In this document: one piece after another, positions 29,040 to 43,242 of the stretch
Position numbering within the stretch: the first letter of the stretch is position 1
Layout: the number at the start of each line of letters is the position of its first letter
Source of the DNA: Acidimicrobiales bacterium
GTDB lineage: Bacteria > Actinomycetota > Acidimicrobiia > Acidimicrobiales > SKKL01
Assembly: GCA_034521975.1 (NCBI GenBank)
Contig: JAXHLR010000003.1
Location: forward strand, 62,001 to 126,000
DNA: 64,000 bases
Direction of reading: 5' to 3'
Notes under the pieces: generated by a model
What the model was told of the DNA's origin: nothing
Seen by the model: only the letters and a program-made list of their open reading frames with translations
The model's database searches: none
Translations under genes and position numbers: made by a program

Positions 29040-29885
29040 CTACGGATCCACCCGACCATCGACCGCGTCGTCGCCGTGCAGCAGGCGACCGATCGGGTCC
29101 CAGTCGGGTCCGGCCCGCAGGTGATGGCCGCCGTCGACCGGCAGCGACACGCCGGTCACCCAGGTCGCCTCGGGGCCACAGAGGTAGCGGACCGCGGCGG
29201 CGACATCGTCGACCACACCGGTGCGACTGATCGGCATCTGCGCCAGATAGTCCTGGTGCACCTCGTCGACGCCGAACAGGCCCGCCGCCAGGTCGGTGTC
29301 GACCAGGCCGGGGCAGACCGAGTTGACCCGCACGTTGGCCCGACCGAGCTCGTCGGCCGCGGTGCGCACCAGCATGTCCACGCCCGCCTTCGACACGTTG
29401 TAGGGCGCGCCCATGCGGTGCGTCCGCAACCCGGCGATCGACGAGATGGCACACATCGACCCGCCGCCGCTGCGGGCGATGGCCGCCCCCGCGTGCTTGA
29501 ACGTGAGGAACGTGCCGGTGAGGTTGGTGTCGAGGATGCGCTGCCAGTCGGCCAGCGGGGTGGCGATCACCGGAGCAACACCGCCGATGCCCGCAGCGGC
29601 AACCGCCAGGTGCAGCCCATCCTCGGCCTCGGCCGCGGCGGCGACCGAGTCGCGCACGGCATCCTCGTCGGCCACGTCGGCCACCACGTGCTGGACCTGG
29701 GCGCCCTCGGGTGCGTCGGCGCGCAACGACTCGACCGCATCGACCAGCTTCGCCTCGGTACGTCCCACGAGGGTCACCGACGCGCCATCGCGCAGCAGCG
29801 CCCTGGCACACGCCAACCCGATGCCGCTCCCCCCGCCGGTGACGTAGGCGCCCGTCCCCGACAGGGCCAGACCGTTGCTCGACAT
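29040..29885 (-). CDS. Short-chain dehydrogenase/reductase
   Basis: This 281-residue NAD(P)-dependent oxidoreductase has the cofactor motif T-G-G-G-S-G-I-G-L at 16-24, A-A-A-G-I-G in place of N-A-G, and the active-site Y-N-V-S-K with upstream Ser in A-I-S-S-I-A-G. The late C-P-G-L-V-D-T-D segment is usual for the family. The substrate is unknown. ATG 29885 fits the N-terminus of the family; longer versions run into a repeat region. The first 19 codons and the upstream 96 nt are duplicated at 41.56-41.71 kb. The desaturase gene follows on the same strand behind its own operator. Confidence 0.85.
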   Translation of the reverse strand: MSSNGLALSGTGAYVTGGGSGIGLACARALLRDGASVTLVGRTEAKLVDAVESLRADAPEGAQVQHVVADVADEDAVRDSVAAAAEAEDGLHLAVAAAGIGGVAPVIATPLADWQRILDTNLTGTFLTFKHAGAAIARSGGGSMCAISSIAGLRTHRMGAPYNVSKAGVDMLVRTAADELGRANVRVNSVCPGLVDTDLAAGLFGVDEVHQDYLAQMPISRTGVVDDVAAAVRYLCGPEATWVTGVSLPVDGGHHLRAGPDWDPIGRLLHGDDAVDGRVDP

Positions 29886-29981
29886 GACCGCATCCTGCCA
29901 GAGCCGGGAACAAACCTGCCCGAACGGCTTGACACTCGAACTGGTGTTCGCTCTCGTGGTGGGACTTCCCCATCGGAGCTG
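29830..29981 (+). repeat. Left copy of a ~152-bp direct repeat
   Basis: This stretch covers the first 56 nt of the SDR gene (antisense) and its upstream region, and matches 41561-41712 in the same orientation with about seven mismatches. The mismatches cluster where the right copy has a -10 hexamer (TATGGT there, TCTCGT here) and in one base of the SOS-box-like palindrome. The two copies bracket 11.73 kb. Confidence 0.9.
29936..29951 (+). promoter_or_regulatory. Degenerate SOS (LexA) box
   Basis: TCGAAC-TGGT-GTTCGC differs by one base from the actinobacterial consensus TCGAAC-N4-GTTCGA and aligns with the perfect box at 41667-41682. The neighbouring -10 is also lost, so this copy of the HNH promoter looks dead on the plus strand. 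It may still affect the SDR gene on the other strand. Confidence 0.55.
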
Positions 29982-30040
29982 CAGCATCTGCGAATCCAAC
30001 GGCAGTGAGCGGGTGGTGTCGGCGAACGCGCACGCCGAGC
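29982..30040 (+). pseudogene. Decayed 5' remnant of a DUF222/HNH gene
   Basis: From 29982 to about 30030 the sequence matches 41794-41842 of the intact DUF222/HNH gene with few changes, for example ATCTGCGAATCCAAC and GAGCGGGTGGTGTCGGCGAA. An 81-nt stretch of the intact locus, including its start codon, is missing between the direct repeat and this piece, and homology fades after 30030. It is too short to code for anything and marks a former copy of the element. Confidence 0.7.
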
Positions 30041-30107
30041 CAGCGCTCACGGGGTCGTCGTGAGCATGATGGCCGCCCCCGATGGACCCGATGATTGCGC
30101 CCAGCGG

Positions 30108-30113
30108 TATCAT
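30108..30113 (+). promoter_or_regulatory. Probable -10 element of the GntR regulator gene
   Basis: TATCAT lies 8 nt before GTG 30122 without a ribosome-binding site. The following CATCGG is shared with the two divergent promoters of the island (GCATCGGC near 31360 and ACATCGGC near 38055), so it could be part of an operator for this regulator. The start codon itself lies in the palindrome GTGACGTCAC. Confidence 0.4.
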
Positions 30114-30121
30114 CGGACACA

Positions 30122-30805
30122 GTGACGTCACCTACGCAAGACACGGAGACTGCGAGTTGCGCCCACCTGGTGAGTGGCGAACTCCGGCGCATGATCGTCA
30201 CGGGAGAGATCGAACCGGGTCAGCGCATCCTCGCCAAAGACGTCGCGTCCCGCTTCGGCGTCTCGCACATCCCCGTGCGTGAAGCCATGCGCCGTCTCGA
30301 AGGTGAGGGATTGCTGCGCTACCACTCCCAGCGGGGCGCCGTGGCGACCGACATCTCGCTCGCCGAGCTTGCCGAGATCTACGACCTGCGCCGGTTCCTC
30401 GAGTGCCGCGCCGCCGCCGCCGCAGTCAGCAGTTTCGACGACGAGTACGTCGGGCGGGTCCGAGATGCGCTCGCCGAGCTGGAGCGGACGCGGGCGGAGG
30501 ACCCACACGGCGAAGCGTTCTTTGATGCGCACCACAGCTTCCACTGGCTGCTGATCGCACCGGGCTGCTCAGCACTCGTCGAGCGGATGCTGCGTCACCT
30601 CTGGAGCGCAGCCGATCGATACGTCCACCTCGGGCTGGAACAGGCACCGACCCCCGGTGCCGGGCGCCACCACCGAGAGCTGTACAGGGCCGCCAGCGAC
30701 CGCGACGCCGACCGCCTGGTGCAGTTGGTCGACGATCACCTCCACAGAACCGAGGCGTCCGTGCTGGCACACCTCCAGCACCTCGCCCCGCCGGCCGAGG
30801 CGTGA
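30122..30805 (+). CDS. GntR-family transcriptional regulator with FCD ligand domain
   Basis: This 227-residue regulator has an N-terminal winged helix (about 15-80, with I-P-V-R-E-A-M-R-R-L-E-G-E-G-L-L as recognition region) and a helical FCD domain (about 90-220) whose metal-binding His/Asp residues appear in D-A-H-H-S-F-H and H-H-R-E-L-Y. FCD regulators usually sense small carboxylic acids and repress catabolic genes next to them. It is the first gene of the island and therefore the best candidate for its control. I chose GTG 30122 over TTG 30095 because the probable -10 hexamer ends 8 nt before it. It converges with the VOC gene 3 nt away. Confidence 0.85.
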   Translation: MTSPTQDTETASCAHLVSGELRRMIVTGEIEPGQRILAKDVASRFGVSHIPVREAMRRLEGEGLLRYHSQRGAVATDISLAELAEIYDLRRFLECRAAAAAVSSFDDEYVGRVRDALAELERTRAEDPHGEAFFDAHHSFHWLLIAPGCSALVERMLRHLWSAADRYVHLGLEQAPTPGAGRHHRELYRAASDRDADRLVQLVDDHLHRTEASVLAHLQHLAPPAEA

Positions 30806-30808
30806 TCA

Positions 30809-31336
30809 CTACGACGATGTGGTCGTCGATGCCAGCCAGTCCTCCAGCGCAGCCTCGGCCTCGGCGGCGTCCTCGTCGCCCAGCGCTCGCCGCTGGTGCG
30901 TGAGTTCGAGCCTTACGCCGTTCGGATCGAAGAAGTAGATCGACGTCCAGATGCCGTCGTGGTCGACCGGCTCCGAAACCGCCACGCCGTGGTCGACGAG
31001 ATGCTGGCGCCACTCGACGAGCTCGTCCGCATCATGCACGCCGAGTGCGAGGTGACGGGTGAAGACGGGAAGCCCGTCATCTCGGCGTTCCCACTCGCCC
31101 TCGAGCGCGAAGAACGCCAAGCAGTCTCCGCGCTCGGTCTCGTAGAAGACGTGGAGAAATGCTGGTGATCGCTCGCCGCTGGTGAGGGTTCCCCCATCGC
31201 TCCTGATCGCCCCGGCGAACCGGCAACGGAGGACCTCGGTGTAGAAGCGATGGGTCGCCTCCACGTCCATCGTTTGGTAGGCGACGTGGTTCACCCCGAT
31301 GGGTGCGCCTGTGCCACCGCTGTCCGATGCGTTCAT
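30809..31336 (-). CDS. VOC-family protein (glyoxalase/extradiol dioxygenase-like)
   Basis: The 175-residue protein has the paired beta-alpha-beta-beta-beta modules of the vicinal oxygen chelate fold. Possible metal ligands are His in G-V-N-H-V-A-Y, His in T-R-H-L-A-L-G-V, and Glu in D-P-N-G-V-R-L-E-L. Relatives include ring-cleaving dioxygenases, glyoxalases and isomerases, so the exact reaction is open. In this catabolic island a dioxygenase or isomerase step is plausible. AGGAG precedes ATG 31336. It shares a compact bidirectional promoter with the deacetylase-fold gene. Confidence 0.75.
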   Translation of the reverse strand: MNASDSGGTGAPIGVNHVAYQTMDVEATHRFYTEVLRCRFAGAIRSDGGTLTSGERSPAFLHVFYETERGDCLAFFALEGEWERRDDGLPVFTRHLALGVHDADELVEWRQHLVDHGVAVSEPVDHDGIWTSIYFFDPNGVRLELTHQRRALGDEDAAEAEAALEDWLASTTTSS

Positions 31337-31363
31337 ACGGGATCTCCTCTCGTATCGTGCCGA

Positions 31364-31374
31364 TGCTATAACAT
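31364..31374. promoter_or_regulatory. Bidirectional promoter between the VOC and deacetylase-fold genes
   Basis: The near-palindrome GCTATAAC gives TATAAC/TAACAT on the plus strand, ending 7-9 nt before GTG 31382 (leaderless), and TATAGC on the minus strand, about 28 nt before ATG 31336 with a ribosome-binding site in the leader. The minus strand reads GTTATAGCATCGGC, nearly identical to the plus-strand GTTATAACATCGGC at 38047. Confidence 0.5.
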
Positions 31375-31381
31375 ATTGGAC

Positions 31382-32128
31382 GTGCCCGTCCCCGTGTGCC
31401 TCAGCTTCGACAACATGGGTCTCGCCGCCGACGTCGGTCGGGGTACCGCTTCGGCTCCTGATGCCAACGAGCCGGGCCTTCGGGTGGGTTATCCCGCCAT
31501 CCTCGATCTCTTGAACCGGCACGGCGTCACGTCGACCTTCTTCGTTGAGGGTTGGAACGGTGTCCACCATCCCGACCGCGTCGCCGAGTTGCTGGGCGCA
31601 GGCCACGAGGTCGCGGTGCACGGTTGGGTCCACGAGCGGTGGCAGGACCTCGATGCTGATACCGAGCGAGAACTGTTGACCCGGGCCATCGATGCGCTGA
31701 CCGGCTGCGGAGCCGATATCCAGGGATTCCGCGCCCCCGGCGGCCACCGCAGCGCGGCGACCATGCAGGTGCTCGCCGACCTCGGCCTCCGCTATGACTC
31801 GAGCCTCGATCCGGCAGGCGCTCACCTCGATGACACGGGCATCGCAGTCCTGCCGTTCGAATGGCCCCACGTGGACTGGCACTGGTTCGGTGCCCAAGAC
31901 CCTCCAGCGGCGCCCGAGGACTTCGCTGCTGCCCTCCGACGCGGTCTCGCTGCGGCAGCAGCGTCGGCGGAGCCGCTGGTGGCCATCGTCCACGCCCGGA
32001 CCTCGGCGCTGGCGGCTGATCGCCTGGAGGTGGTCGAGTCGTTCGTCTCCGCGGTCCTCGACGATGACCGCTTCGAGCTCCTCCCGCTCCGGGCCTTGGC
32101 CACACGCCTGATCGGCGACACCCCGTAG
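31382..32128 (+). CDS. Polysaccharide-deacetylase-fold (NodB-like) metal hydrolase
   Basis: This 248-residue NodB-fold protein starts directly with the catalytic strand: V-C-L-S-F-D-N-M-G carries the first Asp, but the second Asp of the usual D-D pair is Asn. The zinc-binding motif is H-G-W-V-H-E with the two His four residues apart, as in the PuuE/HpPgdA branch, and F-R-A-P-G-G-H is motif 3. The branch includes allantoinases and cyclic imidases as well as deacetylases. Without a signal peptide and within a catabolic island, a cytoplasmic hydrolase of a small cyclic amide is as likely as a glycan deacetylase. Start GTG 31382 follows the probable -10 closely. Confidence 0.7.
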   Translation: MPVPVCLSFDNMGLAADVGRGTASAPDANEPGLRVGYPAILDLLNRHGVTSTFFVEGWNGVHHPDRVAELLGAGHEVAVHGWVHERWQDLDADTERELLTRAIDALTGCGADIQGFRAPGGHRSAATMQVLADLGLRYDSSLDPAGAHLDDTGIAVLPFEWPHVDWHWFGAQDPPAAPEDFAAALRRGLAAAAASAEPLVAIVHARTSALAADRLEVVESFVSAVLDDDRFELLPLRALATRLIGDTP

Positions 32129-32142
32129 CGACCCAACGAGGG

Positions 32143-32991
32143 TCAGCTGCCGGGCGCGGCCTGGCAGCTGTTGCGCATCCACCCGAGTCCCTCGATGCTG
32201 CTAGTGATCACGTCCCCCGGCACGAGGTAGCGAGGCGGACGCCGGGCCGACCCCACGCCCTCCGGCGTGCCCGTGAAGATCAAGTCTCCCGGGTACAGCG
32301 GCATGCACTCGCTGAGGAAGGCGATGAGCGCCCGTACGCCGAAGATGAGGTCCGACGTCTTGGAAGCCTGCACCTCCTCCCCGTTGACCTCACAACGGAT
32401 GACCAGATCCTCCGGATCGTCGAGCTCGTCGAGGGTCGTGATCGCCGGCCCACATGGCCCAAAGGTCCGGTAGGACTTGCCCAACGTCAGCTGCGGCCCG
32501 GGCGACGAGCGCTGCACCCGACGTTCGGAGATGTCCTGGCCGATGCTGTACCCGGCGATGAAGTCGAGCGCCGTCTCCTCCCCGACGTGCTCGGCCAGCC
32601 GACCGATGACCAGCACCAACTCCACCTCCCAGTCGCAAGCGTCGCTGGGCAAGAGCACATCGTCGTACGGACCGACGAGGCTGCCCGGCAGCTTCGAGAA
32701 CAGCAGCGGAATCTCAGGAATTGCCCAACCCGACTCAGCAGCGTGAGCCCGATAGTTGAGCCCGATGCCGAGCGACTGTCGCGGGCGCGGCACCGGCGGG
32801 CCCAGCGCCGTCTCATCGAACGGCGCCCACTCCTGCACGTCGAGGTCTGCGACCAACTCGCGAGTCTCGTCCCAGCGTTCGAGCACAGCTACGGGGTCGG
32901 AAGGCAGCTTCCCGTTGCTCGCCCGCTCGAGATCGGCGGCGCCGTCGGAACCGAGGAGCACAGCTCGGCCGGCCAGGTTGGCGATTTTCAT
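32143..32991 (-). CDS. Fumarylacetoacetate hydrolase (FAH) family protein
   Basis: The 282-residue protein has a small N-terminal domain and the FAH catalytic domain from about residue 75. It shows I-G-L-N-Y-R-A-H-A, the metal-binding glutamates in D-W-E-V-E-L-V-L, then D-I-S-E-R and T-G-T-P-E-G-V-G near the end. The family hydrolyses or decarboxylates beta-diketo acids and hydrates 2-oxopent-4-enoates at the end of aromatic catabolism. It is the last gene of a seven-gene operon behind an ABC importer, joined by ATGA to livF, so it probably acts on an intermediate of the imported compound. Confidence 0.88.
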   Translation of the reverse strand: MKIANLAGRAVLLGSDGAADLERASNGKLPSDPVAVLERWDETRELVADLDVQEWAPFDETALGPPVPRPRQSLGIGLNYRAHAAESGWAIPEIPLLFSKLPGSLVGPYDDVLLPSDACDWEVELVLVIGRLAEHVGEETALDFIAGYSIGQDISERRVQRSSPGPQLTLGKSYRTFGPCGPAITTLDELDDPEDLVIRCEVNGEEVQASKTSDLIFGVRALIAFLSECMPLYPGDLIFTGTPEGVGSARRPPRYLVPGDVITSSIEGLGWMRNSCQAAPGS

Positions 32992-33713
32992 GGTCCGTCT
33001 CCGTCGTTCACATCCGGCAGTTCGCCGGTGAGATATGCAGCAGCTAGGACCGCGGGGTCCGAGAACTGGTCCGGCTGACCATGGGCGACGATGCGACCAC
33101 CGCGGAGCACGATTACCTGGTCTGCGAGCTGCAGCGCCCGGGCGGTCTTCTGCTCGACCAGGACGAGCGTGACCCCTGCCTCCCGGATGGCGGACACCCG
33201 ATCGAACACATCGTCGCAGAGCGACGGCGCCAGACCGAGGGTCGGTTCATCCAGGAGCAGCAGGCGGGGTTCGGCGACGAGCGCCCTCCCGATCGCGAGC
33301 ATCTGCTGCTCGCCGCCCGACAACGTCCCGGCAACCTGGCGGCGACGCTCGGCGAGTCGGGGAAGGAGATCGAAAATGGGCGACAGGTTCCTGGCTCGCA
33401 ATCCGAAGCCACCAAGGCGGAGGTTCTCGGCGACGGTCAGGTTCGCGAAGACATGACGCCCCTCAGGCACGTGGGCCATCCCGGCGCGCCGGCACTGCCA
33501 GGCGCGCAGCGGCGCAGGTTTCCCGGCGAACGTGACCTCGCCGCGTCGTCGGAGTGCGCCAGCGATGGCCCGGACAGTCGACGTCTTGCCGGCGCCGTTG
33601 GCTCCGAGCACCGCCAACACCGTCCCTTCGTCCACGGAGAAGTCGATGCCCCTGACGGCCTGCACCTGCCCGTAGCGGACGTCGAGGCCCCGGACCTCGA
33701 GAAGTGCACTCAC
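32988..33713 (-). CDS. livF: Branched-chain amino-acid-type ABC transporter ATP-binding protein LivF
   Basis: This 241-residue ATPase has Walker A G-A-N-G-A-G-K-T near residues 35-42, the LivF-typical H-V-P-E-G-R-H-V-F after the Q-loop region, signature L-S-G-G-E-Q-Q and Walker B L-L-L-L-D-E-P-T-L-G-L-A-P. With LivG it powers the LivHM permease at the inner face of the membrane. Starts and stops overlap those of its neighbours (GTGA with livG, ATGA with the FAH gene). In this context the substrate is more likely an organic acid or aromatic compound than an amino acid (inference). Confidence 0.92.
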   Translation of the reverse strand: MSALLEVRGLDVRYGQVQAVRGIDFSVDEGTVLAVLGANGAGKTSTVRAIAGALRRRGEVTFAGKPAPLRAWQCRRAGMAHVPEGRHVFANLTVAENLRLGGFGLRARNLSPIFDLLPRLAERRRQVAGTLSGGEQQMLAIGRALVAEPRLLLLDEPTLGLAPSLCDDVFDRVSAIREAGVTLVLVEQKTARALQLADQVIVLRGGRIVAHGQPDQFSDPAVLAAAYLTGELPDVNDGDGP

Positions 33714-34462
33714 GTCTGGGCTCCCAGGTAGGCCTCGACGACGCGAGGGTGGTCCCGGACCGCAGCCGGCGGTCCCGAGGCGATGACAGCACCGAAGTCG
33801 AGCACGACGACGTTGGCGCTGAGCGACAGGACGAGCTCGATGGCGTGCTCGACCAGGACCACAGCAACGCTGGACGCGACCTCGGCCACCACGGCGCCAA
33901 GCTCGTCCCGTTCGTGGTCGTCGAGACCAGCCGCCGGTTCGTCGAGGAGCAGCAACTCGGGCTCGGCCATCAGAGCCCGGGCCAACTCCACCTTCTTTCG
34001 CGTGCCGTAGGGGAGCGCGCCCGCCTCGGTGCCGAGCACCGCGGTGATACCGAGCCGCCCGGCCACGTTCTCGACTGCGGTCGCCACCAGCTCACGCTCG
34101 TCCCTCGATCGGCGTGAGCCCACGAGCGCGCCCGGCAGCCCAGTGCGTCCCAGGCGCCAACTCCCGATGGCGAGATTCTCCTCGACAGTGAGGGCATCGA
34201 AGAGCTGCAGGTTCTGGAACGACCTGATCACGCCGGCGCGTGCCACTTCCTGGGGGGATGCACCCACGAGTTCCATGCCATCAAAGCGGACGCTCCCGCT
34301 GTCGGGCCGCAGCCAGCCGCTCAGGCACGACAACAGCGTCGACTTGCCCGCCCCGTTGGGACCGATGAGGCCGGTGACCTGCCCGCGGTCCGCCCGGAAC
34401 GAGACATCGACCAACGCCCGCACGCCTCCGAAGGATTTCGTGACGCCGTCAACGTAGAGCAC
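33710..34462 (-). CDS. livG: Branched-chain amino-acid-type ABC transporter ATP-binding protein LivG
   Basis: The 250-residue ATPase has Walker A G-P-N-G-A-G-K-S-T, F-Q-N-L-Q-L-F around the Q-loop, a slightly unusual signature L-P-Y-G-T-R-K (L-S-Y-G in most LivG), Walker B L-L-L-L-D-E-P-A-A-G-L and the switch His in V-E-H. GTG 34462 is preferred because longer versions would overlap livM by over 100 nt; the chosen start overlaps livM by 14 nt. It pairs with LivF. Confidence 0.9.
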   Translation of the reverse strand: MLYVDGVTKSFGGVRALVDVSFRADRGQVTGLIGPNGAGKSTLLSCLSGWLRPDSGSVRFDGMELVGASPQEVARAGVIRSFQNLQLFDALTVEENLAIGSWRLGRTGLPGALVGSRRSRDERELVATAVENVAGRLGITAVLGTEAGALPYGTRKKVELARALMAEPELLLLDEPAAGLDDHERDELGAVVAEVASSVAVVLVEHAIELVLSLSANVVVLDFGAVIASGPPAAVRDHPRVVEAYLGAQT

Positions 34463-35468
34463 GGCCGCTCCCTGCCTCGCGTAGGCCGGGGCGGCCCTTC
34501 GTCCAGCGAGCACCCCACGCCGCGATCCGATCCGACAGCCACGTTGCACCCCCGGCGATCCCGTCGCGGGTGAGGACCACAGCTACCAGCAGCACGACTC
34601 CGTACCAGAGCTGGAGGTTTGAGGTGCGACCGGTGAGTCCCTCCTGAAGCAGGACGACCGCCGCTGCTCCCGCCAGTGCGCCCACCGGCGAGGTGATTCC
34701 TCCGAGAACAACCGCGGTGAGAAAGGTCAGCGACATCGTCAATGAGAACGTCCCCGGGCCGAGCACGCCGAGCAGGTGCGCCAAGAGACCTCCGGCGACG
34801 CCGGCATAGACACCAGCAACACCGAAGGCGACAATCCGCACCCGGCGCGTGTCGATGCCGAAGGCCGCCGCCGCCACGGGCGAATCACGGTGCGCGCGCA
34901 GGGCGCTGCCCCAGCGCGATCGCAGGATCCGGTGGGCGGCGAATAGCCCGATCAGCAGGACGCCGAGTACGACGTACCAGAACCGCAGCGAGGAGTCGAA
35001 GGCGAAGCTACCGAGCGCTGGTGTCGGCGCGCTCAACCCAAAGGCACCGCCGAAAAGATCCGGATCACCGATCTCGAACGCCGACCACTTGCCCACGACC
35101 TCTGGGACGACGATCGAGAACCCGAACGTGGCGACGGCGAGGTACGGACCGGCGAGTCGCAGCATGGGCCAACCGAGCAGCAGCCCGGCGATCCCGCCGA
35201 CGACGCCACTCGCCGGGAGGGCAATCCAGAACGACACGTCGGCGCGGATCATCAACAGAGCGGCGGTGTACGCGCCGACGGCGGCGAAGCCGGCATGCCC
35301 CAGTGAGATCATGCCGCCGTGGCCGATGAGAACGGTCAGTCCGACGGCGCCGAGGGCGTACACCCCGATGAGGCACAGGACGAAGTTTCGGTACTCACCC
35401 ATCCCGGTCGGGACGAGCGCCGCCGCGACGAGCACCACGGCGAGGATCAACCCGTTCGACCACCTCAT
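34449..35468 (-). CDS. livM: Branched-chain amino-acid-type ABC transporter permease LivM
   Basis: This 339-residue permease has about ten membrane helices. G-H-G-G-M-I-S-L-G-H-A-G-F near residue 50 and the A-H-R-D-S-P-V-A-A-A-A-F-G coupling segment that contacts the ATPases are family signatures. ATG 35468 shares one base with the livH stop (TGATG), indicating translational coupling. It forms the heteromeric channel with LivH. Confidence 0.9.
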   Translation of the reverse strand: MRWSNGLILAVVLVAAALVPTGMGEYRNFVLCLIGVYALGAVGLTVLIGHGGMISLGHAGFAAVGAYTAALLMIRADVSFWIALPASGVVGGIAGLLLGWPMLRLAGPYLAVATFGFSIVVPEVVGKWSAFEIGDPDLFGGAFGLSAPTPALGSFAFDSSLRFWYVVLGVLLIGLFAAHRILRSRWGSALRAHRDSPVAAAAFGIDTRRVRIVAFGVAGVYAGVAGGLLAHLLGVLGPGTFSLTMSLTFLTAVVLGGITSPVGALAGAAAVVLLQEGLTGRTSNLQLWYGVVLLVAVVLTRDGIAGGATWLSDRIAAWGARWTKGRPGLREAGSGRALR

Positions 35469-36331
35469 CAGAGCTTCACCTCCGCCGCCCGGCCGAACAG
35501 ACCATGGGGCCGGACGACGAGTGCCACGACGAGGACGAAGAAGGTGAACGGTGTTGACAGTTGCGACGACACGTAGCCGGAGATGAGGCTTTCGCCGATG
35601 CCGAGCGCGACGGCACCGACGAGCGCTCCGAAGATGGAGGTGAGGCCCCCGAGGACAGCGCCGGCGAATGCCTTGATGAGCAGCCCGATCATCATGTCGA
35701 CGTTGAGGAACACGATGGGGGCGACAAGCACACCGCTGATCGTTCCCAACACCGCGGCCGCCAGCCATGCACCCCGCACGATCCACGGGACGGGGAGGCC
35801 GACAAGCTCGGCGGACTCCCGGTTCTCCGAGATCGCCCGCATCGCTATGCCAACGGACGTACGCCGAAAGAAGATGGCGAACGCAGCGGCGAGAACCGTC
35901 GTGAAAACGATCGCCAGCAGCGCCTGCCGCGTGATCACCGTATCGAACACCTCGATCGGGGCCCCGTGAACCAGGGGGGGGAACCTGCGTTGGTCGTGAC
36001 CGAAGAGCTCCAAGGTCAACCCGTTGAGGGCGAGGAACAGCGCCACCGTGGCCATGATCTCGTTGATGTGGCTCTTGTTACGCAGCCGGGAGATGACGAG
36101 ACCCTCGACGCCGGGGCCGATGGCACCGGCCAGCACCAGGCCCACGGCGATGGCTGCCCCTAGCGGCACACCGGCGTCCCACACCGCCCAGACGGTGAAC
36201 GTGCAAATGGTGGCGATCTCGCCGTGGGCGAAGTTGATCACCCCGGACGCCCGGTAGATCAACACGATTCCCACGGCGATGACGCCGTAGAGCGCCCCGG
36301 TGGCTGCACCGGAGACCAGATACTGCAGCAT
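35468..36331 (-). CDS. livH: Branched-chain amino-acid-type ABC transporter permease LivH
   Basis: This 287-residue permease has eight or so membrane helices. G-V-I-N-F-A-H-G-E near residue 38 and A-I-S-E-N-R-E-S-A-E-L-V-G (cytoplasmic coupling loop) identify LivH. ATG 36331 overlaps the stop of the preceding small membrane-protein gene by one base (TGATG), so the permease is translated in series with it. Confidence 0.9.
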   Translation of the reverse strand: MLQYLVSGAATGALYGVIAVGIVLIYRASGVINFAHGEIATICTFTVWAVWDAGVPLGAAIAVGLVLAGAIGPGVEGLVISRLRNKSHINEIMATVALFLALNGLTLELFGHDQRRFPPLVHGAPIEVFDTVITRQALLAIVFTTVLAAAFAIFFRRTSVGIAMRAISENRESAELVGLPVPWIVRGAWLAAAVLGTISGVLVAPIVFLNVDMMIGLLIKAFAGAVLGGLTSIFGALVGAVALGIGESLISGYVSSQLSTPFTFFVLVVALVVRPHGLFGRAAEVKL

Positions 36332-36765
36332 CAGCGAGCGATAGTACCGACGAGGGCGCCGAACACCAGGTGCACCAGGAGGTTGCCCGCCAGCGGCGTG
36401 CGGTTGTCGAGCTTCGAGCCGAACCACCCTCGGCCCGTCCCCGGCAGAACCATGCTCATCGCGACGACCGCCCACACCACGACACCGAAGGCCACGCCCA
36501 TCACCGTTCCCACTGGGAGGGACAACGGCTCGCCGCCCTCCCTCCACGAGATGACGGCTGCGGCGTACAGCGCACCGAGGAGCGTAGAGTTGACAAGGTG
36601 GTGGACCAAGCCGAACAGCCAACCGGCGACCGGAGCGTCCAGGTACCTGCGACCCATCGCTGCGAGGTCGAGCACCGGCAGGCGCAGCAGCACCAGCCAA
36701 TGGCCGGTGACGAAGCACGCCCAGCCGGCGATCAGGCCGGCCACTGCCCCCTCCGCCACCGTCAT
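36331..36765 (-). CDS. Small four-helix membrane protein within the liv operon
   Basis: I do not recognise this 144-residue protein. It has four hydrophobic segments (about 4-28, 45-70, 80-105 and 122-143) and a charged loop with R-G-W-F-G-S-K-L-D-N-R-T. Gly/Ala-rich helices and a His pair (L-V-H-H-L-V-N) resemble small uncharacterised membrane families. It lies between livK and livH and overlaps both (ATGA upstream, TGATG downstream). Standard liv operons do not have it, so it may be an accessory subunit of this importer. Confidence 0.65.
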   Translation of the reverse strand: MTVAEGAVAGLIAGWACFVTGHWLVLLRLPVLDLAAMGRRYLDAPVAGWLFGLVHHLVNSTLLGALYAAAVISWREGGEPLSLPVGTVMGVAFGVVVWAVVAMSMVLPGTGRGWFGSKLDNRTPLAGNLLVHLVFGALVGTIAR

Positions 36766-38012
36766 GAGAGGGGCGACCCGGACGGGTCGAGAAGCTCGGT
36801 GATCGGCTCGAACCCCCCAGCCTGGACCTCGAAGAAGCGCTGCGCATCGATGGCTTGATGGTCGTCGGCGTCGAACGACACCGGCGGCGCCAGGCCGTTG
36901 TCGAAGCCGGTCATGGACTCCATGGCGGCGAGAAACGACCCACACGACAGGTCCTCACCTGCTTGGTCAAGGCCCTCGACGATGGTGGAGGCTGCGGACC
37001 ATCCGAGCATGGTGAAGTCGTCGACAGGAGTGCTGCCGAGCGCCTGCTCATGCTCGTTCAGCGCGTCGCTCGCCTCGTCGGGCTGCGGAAAGTACCCGGC
37101 AACCTGGGTGCCCTCGGCCAGCGCCGGGTCGACGAGGTCGAACAGCTGCCGGCTGAACCCGATGTTCGACACGATGAAGGTCGGGTCGTACCCGCGGTTG
37201 CTCGCCTCTGTCAGCGCCTTGGCCAGGATGTCGACCCGCGAGAAAGTGGCGATCACCTCCGCACCGGCGTTCTGCAGGTTGGAGATGTTGGCCGATACAT
37301 CCTGGGCCGTGGTGTCGAACCGCTCGATCGCCACCAGCTCCGCGCCAGCACCCTCGAGCTCGTCCTCGAAAGGATCCACCCACTCGTCGCCGGCGTCGTC
37401 GGCCTGCGCCAACACGCCGACAGCCTGGCCCTCGAACTCCGACGCGATGTGGTTGGCGAAGAGCCTCGCCTCGTCGGGGTAGATGGGCTGATAGCCGAAT
37501 ACCAGCGGTTTCAGCGGATCCGACCACACGCTCGACCCGGAGACGGGGAACAGGAACGGGACTCTGGCACCCTCGACGTAGTCGACCACCCCGAGTCCGT
37601 GGACCGTCCCGACGGTCCCCGTCAGCAGGAACACCCGGTCCTCCTCGACAAGCCGCCGGGTGTTGGCGAGCGTGCGGTCGGGCGCACCCTGGTCGTCGTA
37701 GGCCTTCCACTCGATGGTACGACCGTTGACGCCGCCCGCTTCGTTCACCATGTCGAAGTAGGCCTCACGCCCGGCGTTGATCGGCTCGGTCACGGCGAGA
37801 GGGCCCGACTGCGGGATCGATCCGCCCAGCAGCACGCTGTCGTCGGTGACTCCTTGAGTCACACACTCCGTGGATGCCTCGTCGTCCGACGACGCCGTTG
37901 TCTGGTCTGTGTCAGGTGCGGCCGCGCCGTCGTCGTCGTCGGCGGCGTTGCCGCAGCCGACGACGGACACAACAACAGTCAACGCCAACAGAATCCTTCG
38001 CGCTGCTCGCAT
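36762..38012 (-). CDS. ABC transporter substrate-binding lipoprotein (LivK/AmiC-type)
   Basis: The 416-residue lipoprotein has a signal peptide with lipobox V-V-G-C (lipidated C20), an acidic Thr/Ser-rich linker (22-48) and then a type-I periplasmic binding fold starting at L-L-G-G-S-I-P-Q-S-G-P-L. It would capture the substrate outside the membrane and deliver it to LivHM. It is the first gene of the seven-gene operon; GGGAG precedes ATG 38012 and a -10 (TATAAC) lies in the palindrome at 38047-38054. The ligand cannot be told from sequence; aromatic acids and amides are known ligands of related proteins. Confidence 0.88.
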   Translation of the reverse strand: MRAARRILLALTVVVSVVGCGNAADDDDGAAAPDTDQTTASSDDEASTECVTQGVTDDSVLLGGSIPQSGPLAVTEPINAGREAYFDMVNEAGGVNGRTIEWKAYDDQGAPDRTLANTRRLVEEDRVFLLTGTVGTVHGLGVVDYVEGARVPFLFPVSGSSVWSDPLKPLVFGYQPIYPDEARLFANHIASEFEGQAVGVLAQADDAGDEWVDPFEDELEGAGAELVAIERFDTTAQDVSANISNLQNAGAEVIATFSRVDILAKALTEASNRGYDPTFIVSNIGFSRQLFDLVDPALAEGTQVAGYFPQPDEASDALNEHEQALGSTPVDDFTMLGWSAASTIVEGLDQAGEDLSCGSFLAAMESMTGFDNGLAPPVSFDADDHQAIDAQRFFEVQAGGFEPITELLDPSGSPLS

Positions 38013-38046
38013 GTCATCTCCCTGGTCCTTGTGGTCCGTGGCAGAA

Positions 38047-38056
38047 GTTATAACAT
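38047..38056. promoter_or_regulatory. Bidirectional promoter between livK-like and CMD operons
   Basis: The perfect palindrome GTTATAAC supplies TATAAC on both strands. On the plus strand TATAAC/TAACAT ends 6-8 nt before ATG 38063 (leaderless). On the minus strand it lies about 34 nt before ATG 38012, whose leader has a Shine-Dalgarno site. The surrounding GTTATAACATCGGC recurs with one change, inverted, at the VOC/deacetylase promoter. Confidence 0.5.
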
Positions 38057-38062
38057 CGGCGT

Positions 38063-38638
38063 ATGGACTTGAAAAGGACCCGGCGCATCGAACCGGTCAC
38101 GCGCCCCCACGACGACGACGTCGCGGAGCTGCTCCGCGGCGGCATCGAGCGATCCGGGCTCGCGGTGGTGCCTGACTTCCACGCCGTGCTGGCAAACCAC
38201 CCCGAAGTGCTCCGCCGGATCCTCGGTCTCAGCTTGGGACGGATGCCCGACAGCGAGCTCACCGTACGCCAGCGGGAAGTGCTCGTCCTCCGGACCGCGC
38301 GTCGATGCAGCGCGACCTATGAATGGGCCCACCACCGACGGCGAGCCCGCGAGCGCGGCCTCACGATGAAGGACATTCGGCTCGCATGGGAGGGACCGAC
38401 CTCGGCGGAGACCCCCGAGGACCTTGTCCTGTTGCAGGTGGCCGACGAGCTCCACGACGCCTCCACGGTCGCGGCCGGCACCTGGGACCGACTGTGCGAG
38501 GCGGTGAGCCCGCCAGGGGCGATCGAAGCCGTCGTTGTGGTCGGCTGGTTCCACCTGATCGCCTACCTCGGCAACGCGCTCGGCCTGGAGGTCGAAGCCG
38601 GCGTGGATGCCACGTTCGGTCCTCCGGAGGGACCGTGA
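38063..38638 (+). CDS. Carboxymuconolactone decarboxylase (CMD/AhpD-like) family protein
   Basis: The 191-residue all-helical protein has the CMD motif region R-T-A-R-R-C-S-A-T-Y-E-W-A-H-H near residues 79-93, with one Cys and the His pair. The second Cys of the AhpD C-x-x-C is absent, so a peroxidase role is unlikely. PcaC-type decarboxylases act on gamma-carboxymuconolactone, but most family members are uncharacterised. It starts a three-gene operon with a thiolase and a CoA ligase (GTGA overlap) and is probably leaderless, with TATAAC ending 8 nt upstream. Confidence 0.8.
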   Translation: MDLKRTRRIEPVTRPHDDDVAELLRGGIERSGLAVVPDFHAVLANHPEVLRRILGLSLGRMPDSELTVRQREVLVLRTARRCSATYEWAHHRRRARERGLTMKDIRLAWEGPTSAETPEDLVLLQVADELHDASTVAAGTWDRLCEAVSPPGAIEAVVVVGWFHLIAYLGNALGLEVEAGVDATFGPPEGP

Positions 38639-39825
38639 TCGTGGCTGGGAGCTGGATCGTCGACGCCGTACGCACACCGATCGGCCGACACGGTGGGCAG
38701 CTCGCCGACGTCAGGCCGGACGACCTCGCCGCCGCACCGCTCGCGGCGCTCGCTGCCCGCAACCCGGGCCTCGATCCAAGCACCGTCGACGACGTCATAC
38801 TCGGCGACGCCAACGGTGCGGGCGAGGACAACCGCAACGTGGCTCGTATGGCATCCCTCCTCGCCGGCTTCCCCACGACGGTTCCCGGGACAACCGTCAA
38901 CCGCCTCTGCGGATCTGGGCTCGAGGCGGTCGTTCAGGCCCACCGGGCGATCGCCATCGGGGACGCCAACGTCTGCATCGGTGGTGGCGTCGAGTCGATG
39001 ACGCGGGCGCCGTGGGTGCTGCTGCGACCGGACCATGGTCACGGTCGCGCCGACGCCACCCTGCACTCGACGACACTCGGCTGGCGCATGGTCAACCCCC
39101 GCCATCCCGAGCAGTGGACCGTCTCCCTCGGCGAAGGCGCCGAGATCGTCGCCGAACGCAAGGGCCTGAGCCGAGAGTCCCAGGACGAGTGGGCGCTGAG
39201 GAGTCACCAACGAGCATCGGCCGCCTGGACCGGTGGCCGCTTCGACGACGAGGTGATCGCGGTCCCCGGCTTCTCCTGCGGTGGCGACGAATCGGTCCGA
39301 GAGGACGCCGCGTTGAGTCGCCTCTCGGCCCTGCCACCGGCCTTCCGTCCCGGTGGCACCGTCACCGCAGGAAACGCATGCCCTCTCAGCGATGGTGCCG
39401 CTGCCCTGCTCCTGGCCAGCGACGAAGGCGTGCGACGTTCGGCGGCCCGACCGATGGCAAGGATCGCGGCCACCGCCGTCATCGGAACAGACCCACACCT
39501 GTTCGCCACCGGACCGGTCGGCGCCGCGACAGCGGCGCTCGCCCGCGCCGGGCTCACCTGGAAGGACATCGATCTGGTGGAGCTCAACGAAGCCTTCGCT
39601 GCGCAGGTGCTGGCGTGCCTCGACGAATGGCCTGACCTCGACCCCGAGCGCGTCAACGTGAACGGTGCGGCCATCGCACTCGGGCATCCGCTGGGCTGCT
39701 CGGGCGCTCGCATCCTCACAACGCTGGTGCACGAGCTGCGCCGCCGCAAGGGCCGGTACGGGCTCGCCGCGCTGTGCATCGGGGTCGGCCAGGGCATCGC
39801 GATGGTCGTGGAGTCAGCGACATGA
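38635..39825 (+). CDS. Thiolase (acetyl-CoA acyltransferase family)
   Basis: This 396-residue thiolase has nucleophile C92 in N-R-L-C-G-S-G, the N-E-A-F-A-A-Q active-site loop, His in G-H-P-L-G-C-S-G, and the second catalytic Cys in L-C-I-G-V-G-Q-G. It would cleave a 3-ketoacyl-CoA, giving acetyl-CoA and a shortened acyl-CoA, as PcaF does with 3-oxoadipyl-CoA. It overlaps the CMD stop (GTGA) and the ligase start (ATGA), so the three form a coupled operon and presumably one pathway. Confidence 0.9.
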   Translation: MIVAGSWIVDAVRTPIGRHGGQLADVRPDDLAAAPLAALAARNPGLDPSTVDDVILGDANGAGEDNRNVARMASLLAGFPTTVPGTTVNRLCGSGLEAVVQAHRAIAIGDANVCIGGGVESMTRAPWVLLRPDHGHGRADATLHSTTLGWRMVNPRHPEQWTVSLGEGAEIVAERKGLSRESQDEWALRSHQRASAAWTGGRFDDEVIAVPGFSCGGDESVREDAALSRLSALPPAFRPGGTVTAGNACPLSDGAAALLLASDEGVRRSAARPMARIAATAVIGTDPHLFATGPVGAATAALARAGLTWKDIDLVELNEAFAAQVLACLDEWPDLDPERVNVNGAAIALGHPLGCSGARILTTLVHELRRRKGRYGLAALCIGVGQGIAMVVESAT

Positions 39826-41375
39826 CCGCGGCGGGCCATGCCGATGTCGGCTTCCAGCGTCTTGCCGCGACCGCGCTGCAGCGGAACCCAGAACGGCTCG
39901 CGGTGGTGGACGGCGACCTTCGCTGGACCGGGCGCTCTCTAGCTCGCCGGGTCGGGGCCGCGGCCGATCTTTACCGTGACCTCGGTCTCGGCCCAGGCAG
40001 CCGTATCGCACTACTCAGCCCCAACAGCGCTCACTACGTCGCGGCCCAGCTCGGCGCGGTCATGGCGGGTTGCACCTTCACCGGATTGCACCCACTCGGA
40101 TCGGCGGACGACCACCGCGTGGCACTCGAGCGTCTTGGAGCGGATGCCTTGGTCGTCGACCCGCAGCGATTCGGGGATCGGGCCGCCGAGCTTGTCGCCT
40201 CTGGGGCCGTGCATCGCGTCGTCGACCTCGGCCCCGGCGGCACGGGTGACGACCTAACCGCACTCCCCGATGCCGAGCTGAGCGTGACCGAAGTCGGCGT
40301 GGATGCCGAGGCGTCGATCTCCTTCAGCGGCGGCACGACCGGCCGCCCGAAGGGCGTCGTTCGGTCCCACCGAGCGCTCGCTTGGTCGGCGATGCTCATG
40401 GTCGGTGAATGGGACTGGCCGCGGGTGGTGCGATTCCTCGCCATCGCACCCCTCACCCACGCCACCGGGGCCATGGTCGTCCCGGTGCTCCTACGCGGCG
40501 GCCAAGTGCACATCCACGACGGGTTCGATGCCCGAGCGGTCCTCGCAGCCGTGGAGGAGAACGACATCACTGCGACGTTCGTGGTACCGACCATGCTCTA
40601 CGCATTGCTCGACCACCCGGACATCGACCGGAGGGACCTGTCGAGCCTCCAGCACATCATCTACGGAGCAGCGCCAGCGGCACCGGCCCGGCTGGCCGAG
40701 GCGATGGCTCGCTTCGGACCCGTATTGATGCAACTGTACGGACAGGTCGAGGCGCCCAACACCATCACCGCTCTGCGTACCACCGAGCATCGCGCCGACG
40801 ATCCCGCCCGGCTGGCATCGTGCGGGAAGCCGCTCGCCGGCCTCGACGTGGTGCTGCTCGACCCGGCCGGAAACGAGGTCGCGCGGGGAACGCCAGGCGA
40901 GATCTGCGTGCGGGGCCCGCTCGTCATGGACGGTTACCTCGACAACGAGGAGGCCACGGCCGAGGCGCTACAAGGCGGGTGGCTCCACACGGGAGACATC
41001 GCCGTCGCCGACGAGGACGGGTATCTGACGATCGTCGACCGGGCGAAGGACATGATCGTGACCGGCGGCTTCAACGTCTACCCGCGCGAGGTGGAGGACG
41101 TCCTGGCCACCCATGCCTCGGTGGCCACAGCGGCGGTGATCGGCGTGCCCGACGATCACTGGGGCGAGGCAGTCGTCGCCTACGTCACCTCACGACCGGG
41201 TGAAACCATCGACGTCGAGGCGCTACGGGCCCTGGTCCGGGAACGCAAAGGACCGGTCCATGCGCCGAAGGCGATCCATGTTGTCGACACCATCGCGGTC
41301 ACCGCCTTGGGCAAACCTGACAAAAAGGCGCTACGCAACCGGCACTGGACCGGCGAGGACCGAGGCGTCCACTAG
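39822..41375 (+). CDS. Acyl-CoA synthetase (AMP-forming)
   Basis: This 517-residue ligase adenylates a carboxylic acid and transfers it to CoA. S-F-S-G-G-T-T-G-R-P-K-G is the P-loop near residue 167; later come G-W-L-H-T-G-D-I-A, the hinge D-R-A-K-D-M-I and the C-terminal catalytic lysine in L-G-K-P-D-K-K. It is the last gene of the CMD-thiolase operon. Activation of the imported acid or of a ring-cleavage product is inferred. After it, 41376-41560 holds no recognisable gene. Confidence 0.9.
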   Translation: MTAAGHADVGFQRLAATALQRNPERLAVVDGDLRWTGRSLARRVGAAADLYRDLGLGPGSRIALLSPNSAHYVAAQLGAVMAGCTFTGLHPLGSADDHRVALERLGADALVVDPQRFGDRAAELVASGAVHRVVDLGPGGTGDDLTALPDAELSVTEVGVDAEASISFSGGTTGRPKGVVRSHRALAWSAMLMVGEWDWPRVVRFLAIAPLTHATGAMVVPVLLRGGQVHIHDGFDARAVLAAVEENDITATFVVPTMLYALLDHPDIDRRDLSSLQHIIYGAAPAAPARLAEAMARFGPVLMQLYGQVEAPNTITALRTTEHRADDPARLASCGKPLAGLDVVLLDPAGNEVARGTPGEICVRGPLVMDGYLDNEEATAEALQGGWLHTGDIAVADEDGYLTIVDRAKDMIVTGGFNVYPREVEDVLATHASVATAAVIGVPDDHWGEAVVAYVTSRPGETIDVEALRALVRERKGPVHAPKAIHVVDTIAVTALGKPDKKALRNRHWTGEDRGVH

Positions 41376-41560
41376 CCCATGCGTTCCAGGAGTCCAAGGG
41401 TCGTCGGGTGGGCGCGTTTGCGGAAGTGGTCGTGATGCGAATCTGAAGGTGGCCCGGTGGGGATAGGGGTCTGACAGGCAATGTGGGGGGCGCGGATGTG
41501 GCCGGTGACGCAGGGATGACCGCAGCGCCGTCGGCGGCCCTGGCGGCCGCAAAGCAACTG

Positions 41561-41616
41561 CCCCCGCCGGTGACGTAGGCGCCCGTCCCCGACAGGGCCA
41601 GACCGTTGCTCGACAT
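41561..41616 (-). pseudogene. Truncated 5' end of the SDR gene
   Basis: On the minus strand ATG 41616 begins M-S-S-N-G-L-A-L-S-G-T-G-A-Y-V-T-G-G-G, identical to the start of the SDR at 29885. Homology stops after codon 19 at the edge of the repeat, and the frame then runs into unrelated sequence. It is a by-product of the duplication, not a gene. Confidence 0.85.
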
Positions 41617-41659
41617 GACCGCATCCTGCCAGAGCCGCGAAACAACCTGCCCGATCGGC

Positions 41660-41688
41660 TTGACACTCGAACTGGTGTTCGATATGGT
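41660..41688 (+). promoter_or_regulatory. SOS-regulated promoter with embedded LexA box
   Basis: TTGACA (41660-41665) and TATGGT (41683-41688) are separated by exactly 17 nt. The spacer contains TCGAAC-TGGT-GTTCGA at 41667-41682, a perfect match to the actinobacterial LexA consensus TCGAAC-N4-GTTCGA. LexA bound here would cover the promoter, so the DUF222/HNH gene should be induced by DNA damage. Confidence 0.8.
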
Positions 41689-41782
41689 GGTGGGACTTCC
41701 CCATCGGAGCTGACCCGTCCGGCCATGTGGGCCGGGTGGTGGCGAGGCTCCCTCTTGTCCGGTCGAGCGCGGAGTCGTCCCG

Positions 41783-43000
41783 ATGGGTGATCCCAGGATC
41801 TGCGAATCCAACGAGGGTGAGCGGGTGGTGTCGGCGAACGCCGCCGCGTATCTGGAGCAGTCGCCGGCTGGTCGGGCCGAGACGATCTCGCAGCTGTCCG
41901 CCCTGTTGGCCGCGACCCACGCCGAGCTGCTCGACGTGGTCTGCGCTGCCGATGTCGCCGGCGACTGGGTCGACGACGGCGCGACCGGAGTCGTGCCGTG
42001 GCTGATCGGCCAGGTCGGGGTGGCGAACCCCACCGCACGCGAGTGGGTGCGGGTCGCCGACGCGCTCCAGGACCTCCCGGCGCTGCGGGCCACCTACGCC
42101 GCGGGTGCGCTGTCGTGGGACCAGGTGCGCCACGCCACCAAGTTCGCCTCCAGCGTCGACGACGACGAGCTCGCCGCGTCCCTCCCCGGCTTGTCGGCGA
42201 ACCAGATCGCGCTCATGGCCCGCCAGCGGCGCCCCATCCCCGACGCCGAGGCCAACGAGGCGCACGCCAACCGCGAGCTGTCGTGGCGACGCGACCACCG
42301 TCGCGGCGGGTTCACCTACCGGGGGTTCCTGCCGTTCGACCAGGGCGCCGCCATCAACGCCGCCATCGACCGCCACGCCGAGCGAGCCGGACCCAACCCG
42401 ACGACGGGGGAGTGGGACCGGATCGGTCGACGCCGCGCCGACGCCCTGCACGACCTCGCCACCCGCGCCATCAGCGCCGATCCCGACCCCGACCGCGCCA
42501 CGGTCGTGATCCACGCCGACGCCAAGGTCGTCGACGGCGAGGTCGCAGGCAACGGGTTCCTCGCCGACGTCGCCATCTGCCAGACCAGCCTGTTGCGGTC
42601 GTTGTGCCACGCCCGGGTCGAGGTCGCGTTGCACGGCCCCGACGGCGACACCGTCGGCATCGCCCGTGCCAGCCAGCAGATCCCCGCCTGGTTGGCCCGC
42701 CACATCGGCGCCCGCGACCTCACCTGCCGGTTCCCCGGCTGCGAACGCAAGATCCGCCAGATCCACCACATCGTCCACTGGACCAACGACGGCGAGACCA
42801 ACGCCGACAACCTCTGCGGCCTGTGCTGGTACCACCACCGCCTGGTCCACGAAGGCGGCTGGAACGTCGAGGGCGACCCCGACGGCGAGCTCACCTTCGT
42901 CAGCCCCGGCGGGCGGCGCCGCCTCACCAGCCGACCCCAACCACTCGACGACCACGTCCGCCAAACAGCCACCCGGGCCCGTCGAAGTCGTTCGCCATGA
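41783..43000 (+). CDS. DUF222 protein with C-terminal HNH endonuclease (13E12-like)
   Basis: The 405-residue protein has a DUF222 region (about 30-300) and a C-terminal HNH nuclease. Zinc ligands start at C315 and C320 (C-R-F-P-G-C), the HH of the motif is H328-H329 in I-H-H-I-V-H-W, and C-G-L-C-W-Y-H-H closes it. This is the architecture of the mycobacterial 13E12 repeat family, which is multicopy and partly LexA-controlled. Here the gene has its own SOS box, and a decayed second copy lies 11.7 kb away. The DNA target is unknown. Its stop overlaps the next start (ATGA). Confidence 0.9.
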   Translation: MGDPRICESNEGERVVSANAAAYLEQSPAGRAETISQLSALLAATHAELLDVVCAADVAGDWVDDGATGVVPWLIGQVGVANPTAREWVRVADALQDLPALRATYAAGALSWDQVRHATKFASSVDDDELAASLPGLSANQIALMARQRRPIPDAEANEAHANRELSWRRDHRRGGFTYRGFLPFDQGAAINAAIDRHAERAGPNPTTGEWDRIGRRRADALHDLATRAISADPDPDRATVVIHADAKVVDGEVAGNGFLADVAICQTSLLRSLCHARVEVALHGPDGDTVGIARASQQIPAWLARHIGARDLTCRFPGCERKIRQIHHIVHWTNDGETNADNLCGLCWYHHRLVHEGGWNVEGDPDGELTFVSPGGRRRLTSRPQPLDDHVRQTATRARRSRSP

Positions 43001-43242
43001 AGACCACCGAGGGTACGGTGAATGACATGGGCAAGAAGACCACCGTCTACCTCCCGGACGACCTCAAAGCCGCGGTCGAACGCGAGGCGACGCGTCGCGG
43101 CGTGTCCGAGGCCGAGGTGATCCGCCACGCGATCGCCGCGCTGGTGACCCGGCCGGCACCTCGATTCGGCCTCATCGACGGTGAACCGATCGCCGAGCGC
43201 GCCGACGAGCTCCTGTCCAGCGTCAGGCCAGCTGGTCGATGA
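42997..43242 (+). CDS. Ribbon-helix-helix (CopG-like) protein, possible orphan antitoxin
   Basis: From ATG 42997 the protein has 81 residues; GTG 43018 (with GAGGG close by) or ATG 43027 would give 74 or 71. K-K-T-T-V-Y-L-P-D-D-L-K is a ribbon-helix-helix DNA-binding strand, and the tail P-I-A-E-R-A-D-E-L-L resembles VapB-type antitoxins. No PIN-domain or other toxin follows; the next gene is convergent and overlaps by 20 nt. It is coupled to the HNH gene through ATGA, so it could also be a regulator of that element. Confidence 0.7.
   Translation: MKTTEGTVNDMGKKTTVYLPDDLKAAVEREATRRGVSEAEVIRHAIAALVTRPAPRFGLIDGEPIAERADELLSSVRPAGR

Follow-up and report, generated by a model that had tools for sequence, protein, structure and literature searches.

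The window, the whole stretch of 64,000 nucleotides analysed from an Acidimicrobiales bacterium, contains an 11.5 kb island of 12 assigned genes and one unassigned open reading frame (ORF). It lies between an intact SDR oxidoreductase gene and an intact DUF222/HNH gene, with a copy of the SDR-HNH junction at each of its ends (Table 1). From the family names alone it may be guessed that the island serves an aromatic or sugar-acid route; the nearest NCBIfam models to the FAH-family hydrolase are 2,4-didehydro-3-deoxy-L-rhamnonate hydrolase and HpaG, both of which fall below their cut-offs. A Pfam search of the main island ORFs found no integrase, transposase or insertion sequence (IS), in agreement with the first-pass annotation, which had seen no integrase. 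On the right flank, the PIN partner of the RHH antitoxin-like gene is missing; it is kept directly downstream of the corresponding gene in the sister species (L040 7810-8220).

Table 1. Features of the island, its terminal repeats and its flanking genes (positions in the window)
Feature	Position	Strand	Basis or remark
SDR oxidoreductase gene, intact, left flank	29040-29885	-	Pfam adh_short_C2, 2.6e-55; orthologues 80/74/71% identical in G001/G002/G003
Left copy of the SDR-HNH duplication, main block	29827-29981	+	94.8% identical to 41558-41712
Dead HNH promoter copy: TTGACA kept, -10 TCTCGT, LexA-like box minus its last base	29929-29957 (within a few bases)	+	Alignment with 8 other copies
Left copy, second block: HNH remnant to codon 20, joined after 81-bp leader loss	29982-30029	+	Block alignment; leader present in G001 and paralogues
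GntR/FCD regulator	30122-30805	+	Family assignment
VOC/glyoxalase family protein (start approximate)	30809-31336	-	Family assignment
Polysaccharide deacetylase-family protein (start approximate)	31250-32128	+	Family assignment
Fumarylacetoacetate-hydrolase (FAH) family protein	32143-32991	-	Nearest NCBIfam models below cut-offs
LivF and LivG ABC ATPases	32988-34549	-	Family assignment
LivM and LivH permeases (starts approximate)	34449-36331	-	Family assignment
Uncharacterised ORF	36331-36864	-	No Pfam match
LivK substrate-binding protein	36762-38012	-	Pfam Peripla_BP_6, 7.6e-58
Carboxymuconolactone decarboxylase (CMD) family protein	38063-38638	+	Family assignment
Thiolase, closest to 3-oxoadipyl-CoA thiolases	38623-39825	+	Family comparison
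AMP-forming acyl-CoA ligase, FadD8-like	39822-41375	+	Family comparison
Non-coding filler between island and right copy	41376-41557		Possible 24-nt SDR-start mosaic at 41501-41524
Right copy, main block, with 19-codon SDR stub (antisense)	41558-41712	+	Repeat alignment
Intact HNH promoter TTGACA-N17-TATGGT, LexA-like box TCGAACTGGTGTTCGA in spacer	41660-41688 (within a few bases)	+	Alignment of copies
HNH-leader 15-mer CTTCCCCATCGGAGC	41696-41710	+	7 in this genome, 2 in G001, 0 in 77 other genomes
DUF222/HNH gene, intact, right flank	41783-43000	+	Pfam DUF222 (PF02720), 2.2e-11; 82% identical orthologue in G001
Right copy, second block, inside HNH	41794-41841	+	Repeat alignment
RHH antitoxin-like gene	43027-43242	+	PIN partner of G001 missing here
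S9 prolyl oligopeptidase, conserved right-flank anchor	43223-45322	-	Synteny

The main block of the direct repeat is 155 nt long, with both copies in the same orientation, 11,731 bp apart and differing by 8 mismatches; the longest identical run is 77 nt, and a match of this length at 95% identity is far beyond chance. The first-pass annotation had reported this repeat as about 152 bp with about seven mismatches, overlooking a second, co-linear block of 48 nt with 4 mismatches. Between its two blocks the left copy lacks 81 bp that are present in the right copy, and as both the HNH paralogues and the sister species keep this leader segment, it was lost from the left copy. The duplicated unit is therefore at least 284 bp in length (41558-41841), taking in the first 19 codons of SDR, the intergenic region and the first 20 codons of HNH. 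Over both blocks, 12 of 203 aligned positions differ (5.9%), with changes on both copies when polarised by eye against the sister species and the HNH paralogues. The mismatches in the main block are unevenly spread, with one in the 80 nt of the SDR part and seven in the following 75 nt. In a search of the whole genome the SDR part turned up only in these two copies. At five other loci the match is confined to the promoter (53-66 nt), and each of them lies upstream of another DUF222/HNH gene.

The SDR gene is complete on the left side and the HNH gene on the right. The description of the right copy as a 19-codon SDR stub followed by an intact promoter and a full DUF222/HNH gene is confirmed, the homology to SDR ceasing at 41558. 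The decayed 5' remnant of HNH described in the left copy is also present, but it amounts to only about 17 codons; beyond 30029, the residual similarity is equalled by 93 of 300 shuffled sequences. The filler preceding the right copy has no other copy in the genome. Within it, three blocks at 41501-41524 (10, 5 and 9 nt) match the SDR start perfectly and keep its order; only 6 of 1000 shuffled sequences scored as high, and this mosaic is perhaps a template-switch scar beside the right repeat.

Eight intact promoter copies from this genome and the sister species were aligned, and every one of them keeps the motif GAAC-N4-GTTCG. This suggests that the HNH gene is probably DNA-damage-inducible through LexA and the SOS response; in Mycobacterium tuberculosis, genes of the 13E12 family are members of the LexA regulon and have been described with mobile-element features (PMC5005354). 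In the left copy the -10 hexamer has changed from TATGGT to TCTCGT, and a promoter scan there found none, in keeping with the earlier reading of this copy as a whole SDR gene beside a dead HNH promoter. The seven genomic occurrences of CTTCCCCATCGGAGC correspond to six DUF222/HNH genes and the orphan left copy, which is the only extra leader. This 15-mer is perfectly conserved in the six HNH leaders and in two of the sister species, the proteins being only about 63% identical, and in most copies it is followed by a matching GGCTCC arm. The HNH leader was also examined for conserved RNA structure, and no covarying pairs were found. A role for HNH in defence was considered and rejected, its sole support being a weak and implausible match to Cas7.

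Two further DUF222/HNH units of this genome, L109 (C10) and L110 (C4), are 98.6% identical over approximately 1325 nt, a stretch that begins about 13 nt upstream of TTGACA and runs almost to the end of the ORF. No obvious target duplication accompanies them, and the C-terminus of the unit runs into flanking DNA. Because two units of such similarity sit in unrelated flanks, the HNH unit does duplicate, and judging from these sequences it seems to move or be copied together with its SOS-like promoter. At another, syntenic HNH locus (L107, C2, in this genome; L106, C8, in the sister species), the sister species' copy lacks the promoter and the middle of the gene, and no HNH match was found at the corresponding place in G002.

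Composition separates the island from its surroundings. Third-position GC content (GC3) ranges from 0.774 to 0.856 (mean 0.824) in the 12 island genes and from 0.886 to 0.952 (mean 0.919) in 12 flanking genes, two ranges that do not overlap (Mann-Whitney p = 3.7e-5), so that the composition check proposed in the first-pass annotation gave a clear result; the comparison covered the genes of the window and seven further stretches of the genome. The CoA ligase has no match at E<=1e-90 in the three nearest relatives, and in a search limited to relatives it found matches of 48-56% identity in seven scattered genomes of the order, the best being 56%. For LivK, none of 297 other genomes of the order gave a match at 1e-60, and the phylum sample gave matches of only 32-37% identity; the best matches of the thiolase (61-65%) lie outside the order. 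Queries with LivK, the CoA ligase and the joined FAH and thiolase sequences found no syntenic island in the order and phylum samples; Liv or thiolase clusters of a similar kind occur in three genomes (G231, G339 and G419), none of them syntenic with the island. A tblastn search of plasmids with LivK found none carrying the island, all matches being below 60% identity.

The relatives compared were G001, the only other genome of the genus in the comparison and here termed the sister species, and G002 and G003 from the sister genus. In the sister species (contig 28, L040) the gene order is S9 peptidase, PIN, RHH, HNH, a sigma-like gene, SDR and desaturase; the same anchor genes flank the site in the window, where the island sits precisely between SDR and HNH. 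In both genomes of the sister genus S9 adjoins SDR, and HNH and the island are absent there. An empty site, with SDR and HNH divergent around a single short intergenic region, had been suggested as a check, and the sister species does have the divergent pair without the island; the junction, however, is not bare, but holds the sigma-like gene of 1.7 kb, so named from a reading of its N-terminus, as Pfam gave no match. As a result the bare junction of 150-170 bp remains a reconstruction, found in no genome examined. A scan of GTDB contigs with the SDR protein returned distant SDRs only (28-39% identity) and no new neighbourhood. A similar sigma-like gene sits between SDR and the desaturase in G002, which implies that the SDR neighbourhood is generally unstable. 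In the sister species the sigma-like gene lies between the arms of a perfect inverted repeat of 10 bp, GGGATTCTGG and CCAGAATCCC (L040 9892-9901 and 11633-11642).

A foreign catabolic block has, with little doubt, been gained in the control region shared by SDR and DUF222/HNH. The first-pass proposal of a foreign island inserted at a pre-existing SDR-HNH junction is thus upheld by the sister species lacking the island, by the difference in GC3 and by the island genes tested being missing or distant in relatives. This horizontal gain is placed in the lineage of this species, after its split from the sister species. The repeat copies differ by 5.9%, against an identity of 82% to the sister species in the SDR region, which dates the insertion after the species split, though not to recent times. 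Recombination between the repeats could have deleted the island and yet has not, which suggests that it is useful to the host.

How the block entered can be stated only tentatively. The explanation ranked first, although held at somewhat less than even confidence, is that the 11.5 kb were inserted illegitimately with duplication of the target, through offset breaks, fill-in and end joining. Two breaks, offset between the opposite strands, would have opened the junction, or a fork would have stalled and been mended by template switching; filling in of the ends would have left each flank with the whole junction, and a foreign fragment would then have been joined between the flanks by Ku-type end joining. 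The left copy would later have lost its -10 and 81 bp of leader, so that the GntR gene would no longer be read from an SOS promoter there; on the right, the HNH gene would have stayed functional beside an idle SDR stub. The anatomy of the repeat is that of a target duplication, the left flank being complete through HNH codon 20 and the right from SDR codon 19, and the repeat ends fall at arbitrary coding positions. This route is ranked first because it needs no donor already carrying this piece of chromosome, because the genome has a Ku gene with an adjacent gene read as a LigD-type polymerase, and because in mouse cells the Ku-dependent joining of breaks with long overhangs produces tandem duplications of the overhang (PMC5730883). 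Against it, a 284-nt overhang is long for such a mechanism, and the uneven divergence between the copies also fits an incoming copy that was already different.

That same unevenness is one of the points in favour of a Campbell-type integration, ranked second and possible but less probable, in which a circle that bore the island together with a junction copy underwent one RecA crossover with the chromosomal junction to give junction-island-junction. This would yield exactly the observed anatomy; the target is directly repeated on either side of the island, neither flank lacks anything on its own side, as expected of a Campbell insertion, and the 77-nt identical run remains in the repeat. Circularised incoming DNA is also documented to undergo RecA-dependent single crossovers (PMC3240628). 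However, the circle must already have held 284 bp from this chromosome, bounded by arbitrary points within SDR and HNH, which shifts the problem of origin to a donor; there is no other copy of the junction in the genome, and the plasmid search with LivK returned no candidate. The insertion at the SDR-HNH junction that was suggested earlier is supported; for the route through a circle, no donor or circle with the 284-bp junction piece was found.

It is unlikely that the junction was first tandemly duplicated, by slippage or unequal crossing-over, and that the island entered between the copies later, perhaps stepwise. The end product would be the same, and the filler may hold a third, degenerate SDR-start mosaic, but no tandem junction was found in the three nearest relatives and two independent events at one place would be needed. 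Placement or flanking of the island by mobile HNH units, in the style of a composite transposon, is scarcely plausible: the near-identity of L109 and L110 and the orphan HNH leader in the left copy would suit it, but the repeat includes SDR sequence carried by no other HNH unit, and the HNH gene is in its ancestral place beside the S9 gene. A composite transposon proper was rejected, the ends being the SDR-HNH junction with no IS pair and no transposase. An artefact of assembly or binning, joining foreign contigs at the repeat, has the least credibility, for although the GC3 of the island is distinct, the copies are non-identical and each lies in unique flanks within a 470-kb contig, in a genome 98.7% complete and 0.7% contaminated.

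Known systems offer partial parallels. Insertion-duplication (single-crossover, additive) integration likewise yields an insert with the target directly repeated on either side and involves no recombinase or transposase, but here no circle or donor with the junction was found, the repeat ends are arbitrary coding positions and the event is not recent, given the 5.9% divergence. Integrase-mediated islands and ICEs share the foreign metabolic cargo, the direct repeats and, in principle, the possibility of excision; by contrast, this island lacks an integrase, a tRNA target and mobility genes, and its repeat is 155-284 bp made of the starts of two protein genes. In homology-facilitated illegitimate recombination foreign DNA likewise needs little or no homology at one end to integrate, but that process is characterised by a linear donor with one homologous and one illegitimate end (PMC3240628), and no donor was found for the island. 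The DUF222-HNH repeats of mycobacteria (REP13E12, or 13E12) are similarly multicopy DUF222 genes with LexA control and features of mobile elements (PMC5005354), and the prophage phiRv1 sits within a REP13E12 repeat (PMC9317374); phiRv1, however, has a serine recombinase, whereas the island has none, and SOS control of the present HNH gene is deduced from sequence.

The event itself, the gain of a catabolic island, is of an ordinary kind, but its scar is unusually readable and its location suggestive. It provides a clear example of a whole catabolic gene set gained without an integrase or transposon, with a legible scar and a sister species that lacks the insert. One specific extension, a long shot, is that the SOS-induced DUF222/HNH nuclease itself made nicks in the two DNA strands around the promoter and start codon of its own gene, with fill-in and Ku joining then capturing foreign DNA. 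If true, HNH loci would be damage-triggered sites of DNA capture, and each capture would leave the leader of the nuclease itself duplicated over a long stretch. As the scar lies at a probably SOS-inducible gene of an actinobacterial DUF222/HNH family, a possible link between this family and DNA capture becomes testable.
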